A stretch of DNA of 64,000 bases, taken from contig CANRBF010000004.1 in the NCBI GenBank assembly GCA_947628795.1, positions 1 to 64,000 on the forward strand, written 5' to 3'. A model generated the notes under the pieces. The model was not told the DNA's origin, searched no databases, and worked only from the letters and a program-made list of their open reading frames with translations. Made by a program: the position numbers and the translations under genes. Positions 26,010 to 53,832 of the stretch are shown here, one piece after another (position 1 is the first letter of the stretch; each line of letters starts with the position of its first letter). This stretch comes from an uncultured Monoglobus sp. (GTDB lineage Bacteria; Bacillota; Clostridia; Monoglobales; Monoglobaceae).

Positions 26010-26440
26010 GATCCCCCCTCAGTCACCTTCGGTGACAGCTCCCCCAAGGGGGCGCCTAATATCTGCCTCTCCCCCGAGGGGGCGCCTATTTTCTGCCTCC
26101 TCCCGGGAGGAGGTGGCTGCGGCTTGTCCGCAGACGGAGGTGGGAACGTAGGAATTAGCGATTAGTAAATAGTGATTACGCGGAGTTGATTTGGCGAAAT
26201 TCATTCGCATATTCCCGCGAACGTATGTGTTAGGCTCTCCCCAAGGGGCGAGGCAAACGGGCAGGCTGCGGCCGGAGCCGCGCAGCGGGTTCGTGGCACT
26301 AACGTATTCCGATTGCACAAATAAACGAGGCCATAAATCATTAAATCATCTAGGACATGTGAGGTCGTCCGCCCCTACGAACGTAGCGATTAGCGATTAG
26401 TAAATAGTAAATAGAAACGGGCGGCATATTGCCGCCCGTG
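26010..26440. repeat. Large composite block of interspersed repeats
   Basis: Directly after the nitroreductase stop lie: CCCCCTCAGTC-ACCTTCGGTGA-CAGCTCCCCC; a second AGGGGG-type arm; CCTCCTCCCGGGAGGAGG with inner hairpin CTGCGGCTTGTCCGCAG; AACGTAGGAATTAGCGATTAG short-repeat modules (26150 and 26385); a GGCTCTCCCCAAGGGGCGAGG copy; and GGGCGGCATATTGCCGCCC (26418-26438). Part of the middle (26176-26340) has no obvious module. No coding gene is supported. Confidence 0.75.
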
Positions 26441-26476
26441 GTTTAATTGATTAGGCTCTCAGAGCATCTCGCAAAA

Positions 26477-26649
26477 TAAAAAACGCGGCACACGAAGCGC
26501 CGCGGAAAATGCGGAACCTCGTTGTCGCCAAACAAACCCGAATTTACACTTTTATAAAGCAATAGCATAAATATTCCGCATTTTTTACGAAATAAAACTA
26601 TTGCTTTTAAAAAAAGTATAAATTCCATAATTATTCGAATTTGCTTGGC
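26477..26649 (-). ncRNA. Predicted free-standing structured RNA with pseudoknot and terminator, copy 2
   Basis: A transcript of about 170 nt from the promoter at 26656-26684. Closing stem P1 is 17 bp: 26633-26649 with 26527-26543. P2 is AAAGCAATAG/CTATTGCTTT (26598-26607 with 26556-26565), and P3 is a small hairpin at 26583-26597. The segment just after P3 (26574-26584) is perfectly complementary over 11 nt to 26506-26516, which lies 3' of P1, giving a long-range pseudoknot. The RNA ends in a GC-rich terminator (26484-26504) and seven T. P1 edges, promoter and terminator match the copy at 46509; the pseudoknot sequence is entirely different but still pairs. No open reading frame of note. Confidence 0.7.
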
Positions 26650-26655
26650 AAATTT

Positions 26656-26684
26656 ATATTACCACAAATTCGGGTCTGTGTCAA
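26656..26684 (-). promoter_or_regulatory. Promoter of structured RNA copy 2
   Basis: Minus strand: -35 TTGACA (26679-26684), 17-nt spacer, -10 TAATAT (26656-26661). The spacer end and downstream bases CGAATTTGTGGTAATATAAA are identical to the promoter of the other copy. Confidence 0.85.
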
Positions 26685-33387: not shown

Positions 33388-33393
33388 AGTATT

Positions 33394-33476
33394 TGCTGGG
33401 GGGACCGCCGCGGGCGGTTGAGATAGGCCGAGCCTGACCCTTTGAACCTGACGGTTAACACCGGCGTAGGAAAGCA
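33394..33476 (+). ncRNA. TPP riboswitch (THI element)
   Basis: Contains the conserved segments of the thiamine pyrophosphate aptamer in order: GGGGGGACCGCC, GGTTGAGATAGGC, CTGACCCTTTGAACCTGA, GTTAACACCGGCGTAGGAA. It lies directly upstream of thiC. Downstream, GCTTG (33502) and CAAGC (33519) can pair before a short T-rich stretch, a possible weak terminator platform. TPP binding should reduce expression of the thi genes. Confidence 0.97.
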
Positions 33477-33551
33477 TGGATATTTTAGATAATTTATTTG
33501 TGCTTGTCTCTATCACGGCAAGCGCTTTATTTTTCGGAAGGAGTTTTTAAA

Positions 33552-38643: not shown

Positions 38644-38750
38644 CGCGGCATTTTTTCGCGACACTTCGTGTGCCGCGTTTTTTATTTTGCGAGTTTATGC
38701 TCTTGAGGACCTAATCAATTAAATAAGGGGCGGCAGATTGCCGCCCGTTT
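38644..38750 (+). repeat. 3' remnant of the structured RNA element plus palindromic module
   Basis: 38644-38725 matches the last 80 bp of the RNA at 46509: CGCGGCATTTTTTCGCG, terminator CACTTCGTGTGCCGCG with T-run, TATTTTGCGAG, TGCTCTTGAGG and CTAATCAATTAAAT. The promoter, P1 and P2 are missing; the terminator stem has one mismatch. It is followed by GGGGCGGCAGATTGCCGCCC. Confidence 0.7.
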
Positions 38751-46473: not shown

Positions 46474-46502
46474 TTGACATAAAGCCGAATTTGTGGTAAT
46501 AT
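46474..46502 (+). promoter_or_regulatory. Promoter of structured RNA copy 1
   Basis: -35 TTGACA (46474-46479), 17-nt spacer, -10 TAATAT (46497-46502). Confidence 0.87.
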
Positions 46503-46508
46503 AAATTT

Positions 46509-46661
46509 GCCAAACGTTTTTTAATTTAATTATGATGCTTGTATTTTTGTTATGACAAAAATACCCGCTTCTCTTTATACAAGTATCATAATATAAAGAA
46601 AAACTGTTTGGCGACACGAAGCGCGGCATTTTTTCGCGGCACTTCGTGTGCCGCGTTTTTT
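46509..46661 (+). ncRNA. Predicted free-standing structured RNA with pseudoknot and terminator, copy 1
   Basis: A transcript of about 153 nt. P1: GCCAAACGTTTTT (46509-46521) with AAAAACTGTTTGGC (46599-46612). P2 is 16 bp: ATTATGATGCTTGTAT (46529-46544) with 46577-46592, one G-U pair. P3: GTATTTTTGT-TATG-ACAAAAATAC (46541-46564), sharing 4 nt with P2. Pseudoknot: CGCTTC (46566-46571) with GAAGCG (46618-46623), 3' of P1. Terminator: CGCGGCAC-TTCGT-GTGCCGCG (46635-46655) and six T. A competing antiterminator, ACACGAAG (46614-46621) with CTTCGTGT (46642-46649), would need the same bases as the pseudoknot. No gene follows on this strand, so it is not an ordinary leader. It is not recognised as 6S, SRP, RNase P or tmRNA. 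Confidence 0.7.
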
Positions 46662-46703
46662 ATTTTGCGAGTTAATGCTCTTGAGGGCCTAATCAATTAA
46701 ATA

Positions 46704-46860
46704 GTGGGCGGCAATATGCCGCCCGCCTGCTATTTGCTAATCACAATCGCTGCGTTGACCCCTCTCAGTCGCCTTCGGCGCCAGCTCTCCCCAAGGGGCG
46801 AGCCAAACGGGCGGCATATTGCCGCCCGCTCCTATTCGCTATTCTCTAATCGCTAGTCCC
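46704..46860. repeat. Interspersed repeats at the groEL 3' end
   Basis: GGGCGGCAATATGCCGCCC, a TAATCACAATCGCTGCGTTG module, dumbbell CCCCTCTCAGTC-GCCTTCGGCGC-CAGCTCTCCCC, GGGCGGCATATTGCCGCCC, and CTAATCGCTAGTCCCTACGTTA, whose last bases form the groEL stop codon. Confidence 0.8.
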
Positions 46861-53341: not shown

Positions 53342-53370
53342 TTTACTTTTTAGGCGGAATGTGATAGAAT
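53342..53370 (+). promoter_or_regulatory. Promoter of the abrB-like gene and its leader
   Basis: -35 TTTACT (53342-53347), 17-nt spacer, -10 TAGAAT (53365-53370). The -35 is a moderate match. Confidence 0.5.
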
Positions 53371-53376
53371 ATAAGA

Positions 53377-53562
53377 CGCTACATATTATGAATTTCAAAA
53401 GGACAAATATTTCACCAATTCTCTGAATATGTATTTTTCGAAAAAATGCATGCTTTGAGTTTGGGGAATTGGCTATTGTCCTTAATAGATCTGATTTTCA
53501 TAATGTGTAGCAGCATTAAAACCAAAGCTGCGTTTTTATGCGCGGCTTTGCCGCGCATTTTT
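53377..53562 (+). ncRNA. Structured leader with pseudoknot and terminator/antiterminator upstream of the abrB-like gene
   Basis: P1: ACATATTATGAA (53381-53392) with TTCATAATGTGT (53497-53508). P2: AAGGACAA (53399-53406) with TTGTCCTT (53476-53483), continued by CCAATTC (53415-53421) with GAATTGG (53466-53472). A hairpin follows around TTTTTCGAAAAA (53434-53445). GCTTTG (53452-53457) pairs with CAAAGC (53523-53528), 3' of P1. Terminator: ATGCGCGGC-TTT-GCCGCGCAT (53538-53558) plus TTTT. The alternative AAAGCTGCG (53524-53532) with CGCGGCTTT (53541-53549) excludes both terminator and pseudoknot. This is a plausible attenuator. The order of elements equals that of the RNAs at 26477 and 46509, although the sequence does not match. 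Confidence 0.55.
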
Positions 53563-53589
53563 GTTGCGGATATTTCTTGGAGGGCCGCC

Positions 53590-53832
53590 ATGCATTGTGT
53601 TAAATTGATTGATAAAAACGGACGAATCGTTATTCCTAAATATATGCGGGAGAAAATCGGCATAAACAGTGAAGAGGAAATGGATGTGCTGCTTATGGAT
53701 GATATTGAACAGATCGTTCTTAAACGAAGAGAGGCGCGCTGTGCGATATGTTCTTCGCCAAAAAATCTGAAAAAACTCGATAACGGTTATATTTGCGCTT
53801 CCTGCGCAAAACGGGTATCCGAACTTATATAA
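53590..53832 (+). CDS. AbrB-family transition regulator with C-terminal zinc ribbon
   Basis: An 80-residue DNA-binding protein. The N-terminal SpoVT/AbrB swapped-hairpin domain is MHCVKLIDKNGRIVIPKYMREKIGI, then the strand DIEQIVLKR. The C-terminal 30 residues form a zinc ribbon (CAICSS ... YICASCAKRV, CxxC-x15-17-CxxC). The start at 53590 has SD GGAGGG. A long leader with its own terminator precedes it. AbrB-type proteins control stationary-phase and developmental genes. Confidence 0.9.
   Translation: MHCVKLIDKNGRIVIPKYMREKIGINSEEEMDVLLMDDIEQIVLKRREARCAICSSPKNLKKLDNGYICASCAKRVSELI

Follow-up and report, generated by a model that had tools for sequence, protein, structure and literature searches.

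Orphan riboswitch-like leaders in Clostridia: a candidate family of transcription-attenuation switches with stand-alone members in an uncultured Monoglobus sp.

Relation to known leader switches

Several classes of leader RNA couple a competition between folds to the fate of a terminator. In the fluoride and preQ1 riboswitches, a pseudoknot controls the terminator. C-di-GMP riboswitches occur in many copies per genome and have surface-protein targets in Clostridia, while T-box leaders, also present in many copies per genome, choose between a terminator and an antiterminator. The RNA element considered here was noticed in a window of 64,000 nucleotides, the whole stretch of DNA analysed, from an uncultured Monoglobus sp. 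Like riboswitch-type attenuators, members of its family lie between a promoter and an ORF and contain an intrinsic terminator together with an antiterminator, whose strand is also claimed by a fold lying upstream. They differ in having few conserved unpaired bases and no candidate ligand, and in their number: a genome has tens of copies, which sit on unrelated genes and are each driven by a separate promoter. As in the fluoride and preQ1 riboswitches, a pseudoknot to a 3′ strand would decide termination, but the apical strand is here carried on a 100-170-nt hairpin of free sequence, with no match in Rfam. Multiple copies and surface-protein targets in Clostridia are shared with the c-di-GMP riboswitches, whereas fold and sequence are unlike that family and again find no Rfam match. 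The terminator/antiterminator choice and the multiplicity recall T-box leaders; the targets, however, are unrelated to amino acids or to tRNA charging and the Rfam scans gave no T-box match, which led to the rejection of this identity. 6S RNA, raiA and other known RNAs were likewise set aside for want of an Rfam match.

These comparisons rest on cmscan searches of Rfam 15 with the window, with copy A alone and with 17 loci carrying other members, in none of which a family spans the element with a score above its gathering threshold; relaxed thresholds also gave no match. Nothing matching was found in the literature on riboswitch candidates, BspA leaders and anti-antiterminator pseudoknots, and this RNA is not described in those parts of the motif-discovery papers that term searches brought up. 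The element thus apparently belongs to a large, unnamed and undescribed RNA-switch family of gut Clostridia.

Family layout, distribution and target genes

The original prediction described two copies of an RNA gene, copy A (positions 26477 to 26684) and copy B (the 46509 copy), belonging to a family with variable cores and constant ends. A search of related genomes with copy A returned divergent copies as well as orthologs of A, of B and of a further paralog, C. Their alignment reveals a shared layout consisting of a promoter, GCCAA, a variable hairpin with an apical AAAAAUGC..., the segment GUUUGGCGACAAUCGGAG..GCGUUUUU and a terminator. The family therefore exists, but its ends are not constant, as those of the basal helix P1 also vary, with compensation (GCCAAAC/GUUUGGC, GCCACAU/GUGUGGC, GCUACAU/GUGUAGC). 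Only A5/U5 and the GCUY/GRGC pairing are nearly constant, and the nucleotides that follow P1 are variable (GACAA, AGCAA, AACAA, GATTA). Promoter, hairpin, ORF behind the terminator and family size are established at the level of sequence, as are three mutually exclusive pairings that covary.

From the window's own genome, 17 full copies were fetched. A strict pattern identifies at least 119 stretches in named Clostridia genomes, with matches in 19 of 51 genomes of an order sample and in 35 of 391 of a class sample; outside the class Clostridia it found none, the phylum sample matching only the window's own genome, and the reversed pattern gave zero matches in the order, class and phylum surveys. 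A covariance model built free of the strict pattern (R1) gives 20 matches in the genome from which the window comes; a congener has as many as 40, and several genomes carry 20-40 model matches. With a second covariance model (R2), members were detected in 65 of 245 class genomes, about a quarter, among sampled genomes with at most 11 scored stretches each. These counts imply thousands of copies across Clostridia and tens per genome. A phage origin was rejected, the strict pattern being present in only 9 of 2.9 million IMG/VR contigs. Two leaders on such contigs (L235 and L238) are near-identical although they precede different ORFs, and their beta/terminator part has diverged.

Initiation at the element itself is indicated by a −10-like box just upstream of GCCAAA in 145 members, with 5.13 of 6 matches versus 3.34 at random sites. 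Downstream, an RBS and an ORF lie within 100 nt of the T-run, mostly at 13-35 nt, in 104 of 147 pattern-found elements, and 15 of the 17 copies of the window's genome have a terminator followed by a nearby ORF (L275 and L280 having been read by eye). Most members are therefore leaders of protein genes and not, as originally proposed, essentially RNA genes; copies A and B lack this position between promoter and ORF. Attenuation coupled to an upstream ORF was discarded as an explanation, since only 13 of 145 leaders contain an RBS and a start codon.

In the window's genome, the targets include BspA-type leucine-rich repeat proteins, MazE/AbrB-like zinc-ribbon proteins, a CHAP/lectin protein and a copper-amine-oxidase-N protein. 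By a simple signal-peptide rule applied to a sample of 109 proteins, 61% of the targets of at least 100 aa are export-like, whereas for control ORFs taken from the targets' contigs the figure is 19% (p = 7e-14); lipoprotein-like N-termini occur in 16% of targets versus 5% of controls. No metabolic theme is seen among the targets, and their mix suggests no ligand. PADLOC matches among them are isolated single families, and a link to defence islands was discarded. In a longer subtype (type-2; L026, L044, L068 and others), the 5′ arm of the upper stem P2 contains an additional short hairpin, GGG..TATACCC, with a T-run behind it.

A third member in the window, overlooked in the original prediction, shows the leader arrangement on the plus strand. 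This copy D (53376-53563; covariance-model match of 61 bits, E 1e-12) follows a promoter with TTTACT, 17 nt and TAGAAT (53342-53370) and comprises P1 GCTACAT/ATGTGTAGC, alpha at 53442-53457, beta at 53523-53537, gamma at 53541-53550, with which beta forms a 10-bp match, and the terminator. Behind it, an RBS GGAGG at 53579 precedes a gene (53590-53832, plus strand) for an 80-aa MazE/AbrB-like protein with a zinc ribbon, which matches Pfam MazE_antitoxin at E 3.5e-5, marginally below the cut-off.

Three competing pairings and the proposed switch

Copy A is read on the minus strand, from 26684 to 26478. Its promoter and terminator lie where they had been predicted, the former with TTGACA (26684-26679), 17 nt and TAATAT (26661-26656), the latter with a stem at about 26505-26484 and six T at 26483-26478. 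The RNA would start near 26649 with the letters GCCAAGC, so that its 5′ end, GCCAAGCAAATTCGAAT, forms the 5′ strand of P1 (26633-26649). In the MFE this strand pairs with 26527-26543, which carries GTTTGGC at its end and is also assigned by family covariation; the predicted 17-bp helix is borne out (26649-26633 with 26543-26527). P2 (26544-26632), delimited by ortholog comparison, is a long AU-rich arm with an apical hairpin, in which the apical strand alpha, AAAAATGCGGAA, occupies 26574-26585. Just 3′ of P1 follows the pivot strand beta, ACGAGG plus TTCCGCATTTT (26506-26522), whose partner may be either alpha, in a pseudoknot, or gamma, in an antiterminator. Alpha was assigned by swap tests, and beta by swap tests and pair counts. 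Gamma, CTTCGTGT (26490-26497), lies in the loop and 3′ arm of the terminator, and its duplex with beta is worth −11.1 kcal/mol. On the plus strand, TTCCGCATTTT (26574-26584) and AAAATGCGGAA (26506-26516) are fully complementary, and the 11-nt perfect match claimed for copy A is thus present.

Copy B (about 46507-46661, plus strand), defined by its fold and the covariance model, has the same promoter elements (TTGACA, 17 nt, TAATAT; 46474-46502), then P1, P2, alpha at 46557-46571, beta at 46614-46633 and a terminator. Its pseudoknot had been given as 6-nt CGCTTC/GAAGCG; the pairing is real but longer, AAAAATACC-CGCTTC facing GAAGCG-CGGCATTTTT in a helix interrupted by a single bulge and a single mismatch. 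Both RNAs are far more stable than shuffled sequence (fold z = −7.8 for copy A and −6.9 for copy B), in agreement with the claim of a genuine RNA structure.

Evidence for the pairings comes mainly from swap tests, whose z values retain some effects of relatedness between sequences. Over 126 elements, the apex pairs better with its own 3′ segment than with swapped ones in 20,000 of 20,000 permutations (z −16.6), so that the match is not due to chance and pairing has been kept despite sequence change, as originally argued. Restricted to the positions that the search pattern left free, z is still −10.7, which attests to an upstream fold competing for the antiterminator strand. That antiterminator, mutually exclusive with the intrinsic terminator, escaped the original prediction although it competes with the pseudoknot for beta; it is supported by pair counts and by a swap test with z −15.7, in which exchanging partners weakens pairing in every permutation. 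Control strand pairs gave z −1.0 and −3.0. Within the window's genome alone, z reaches −5.4 for the pseudoknot (16 copies) and −5.5 for the antiterminator, and complementarity between apex and 3′ segment is kept in all 17 fetched copies, none showing the loss that would have spoken against the structure. In 28 aligned type-2 members, the pseudoknot is 96.2% paired and the antiterminator 95.0%, values equalled in none of 500 shuffles. P1 shows double changes in all 15 modelled pairs with 96% pairing across 90 sequences; its ends are paired in 141 of 143 MFEs, and the hairpin has z −8.5. Support from a swap test and pair analysis extends to a local apical hairpin in which alpha would be hidden. 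The original interpretation is thus partly supported, correct in outline but too small in scale.

With a probability of about 0.82, the family is best read as a set of transcription-attenuation switches, that is, orphan riboswitch-like leaders, of which copies A and B would be derived stand-alone members. Each unit would be transcribed from its own sigma-70-type promoter, so that the RNA begins at P1, and the long P1/P2 hairpin would present alpha (AAAAAUGC...) at its apex. Pairing of beta with alpha would leave the terminator free to form and stop transcription. Were alpha instead held in its local apical hairpin, beta could base-pair with gamma in the loop and 3′ arm of the terminator, and the polymerase would continue into the ORF, usually that of an exported protein. 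Beta is similar to alpha's partner strand in the local hairpin and might displace it, which suggests a toehold-like strand displacement. In terms of duplex energies, which leave out tertiary structure and co-transcriptional kinetics, the isolated tail favours the antiterminator in 83% of members and the OFF and ON folds are close (mean −7.6 kcal/mol before any pseudoknot penalty); given this balance, the pseudoknot would be what trips termination. From these comparisons we infer a switch in vivo based on the pairings, with the pseudoknot as the OFF state and the antiterminator as the ON state.

What would throw such a switch might be a small molecule, a protein or a physical cue, and the first two can be weighed. 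A small molecule or ion bound at the pseudoknot or apical hairpin would set the terminator, a more specific form of the attenuation reading that is a serious possibility at somewhat less than even odds: the three-strand layout is typical of riboswitches, tandem units occur (three in genome G001) and exported proteins predominate among the targets, as they do in second-messenger regulons, but the targets have no metabolic theme, the sequence of P2 is unconstrained and that directly behind P1 is variable. The scarcity of conserved unpaired bases, unusual for such an aptamer, argues mildly against a small-molecule pocket. It would suit a trans-acting protein that binds the pseudoknot or the apical hairpin, as in protein-dependent antitermination, and so would the many diverse targets placed under one signal; this is conceivable though rather doubtful, as no gene adjoining the elements stood out as an RNA-binding regulator and the switch appears complete within the RNA itself. 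A dispersed MITE-like repeat, whose folds would be by-products of inverted repeats, could account for the way in which copies A and B bracket, in opposite orientations, a segment that other genomes carry inverted, and for an orphan 3′ end at 38644. It is nevertheless very improbable, for three mutually exclusive pairings covary, promoter spacing is fixed and the distance to the RBS is consistent.

If the attenuation switch is real, it would define a surface-protein regulon in uncultured gut bacteria. Its three strands offer many natural compensatory variants for testing, and the shared signal could be sought in one cultured host, Pumilibacter intestinalis (locus L164). It is tempting, albeit speculative and on present evidence unlikely, to go further and see a global regulatory RNA class of Clostridia, in which promoter-plus-RNA-switch cassettes would place tens of mostly exported-protein genes per genome under one common signal with no conserved small-molecule pocket, and copies A and B would titrate that signal in trans.

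Stand-alone copies A and B

Judged by their sequence, copies A and B are derived stand-alone members that retain the whole predicted switch. Each faces the 3′ ends of convergent genes and has no ORF behind it, so the leader mechanism leaves their role unexplained. Their neighbours are nitroreductase, radical SAM, GroEL and two-component genes; no cognate RT, TnpB or Cas gene lies beside either copy, and retron, omega and CRISPR guide RNAs were rejected as identities. The proposed output is a terminated RNA, with a predicted length of about 175 nt for A and 155 nt for B. Such RNAs probably work in trans or by decoying the same signal, or else they are leaders that lost their genes recently.

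Orthologs of copy A in genomes G000, G011 and G002 bear on this question. Compared by eye, as MAFFT misaligns P2, they differ in the sequence of P2 while stem and apex are kept; alpha and beta are unchanged, and the replaced arm still forms a stem. RNAalifold finds few compensatory pairs in P2 because of this misalignment. Conservation of alpha and beta beside a replaced P2 indicates that the parts of the stand-alone switch are either under selection or recently orphaned. That A and B have evolved from leaders into trans-acting small RNAs or decoys is close to an even proposition: they keep promoter and terminator without an ORF in either genomic arrangement, the apex and 3′ segment of copy A persist in its orthologs, and a 3′ flank is common to A, B and the 38652 relic. 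Yet no target was identified for either copy, and relics such as 38644 show that copies of this type also decay. Paralog C has two tandem 3′ arms, one or other of which, in different genomes, matches the 5′ arm of its P2.

The 20-kb segment between the inverted copies A and B (26478-46661) appears inverted in related genomes. In G002 and G011, groEL adjoins copy A, and in G002 the nitroreductase gene adjoins copy B, as expected from such an inversion; its breakpoints would fit the shared flanks, and the arrangement is consistent with recombination at the 3′ flanks of the elements. The extra 3′ flank (26415-26470 for A, 46662-46739 for B) ends in the palindrome GGGCGGCAATATGCCGCCCG, which is also present elsewhere in the genome. 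The relic itself (38644-38712, plus strand) is what is left of an A/B-type copy, namely its terminator and 3′ flank without a leader, and is 96% identical to the 3′ end of copy B.

Two known RNAs were also seen. An Rfam skipping-rope RNA (RF02924) lies close to a family member at L181:796-885, and the window contains a TPP riboswitch on the plus strand (33388-33489), just upstream of an ORF at 33498.
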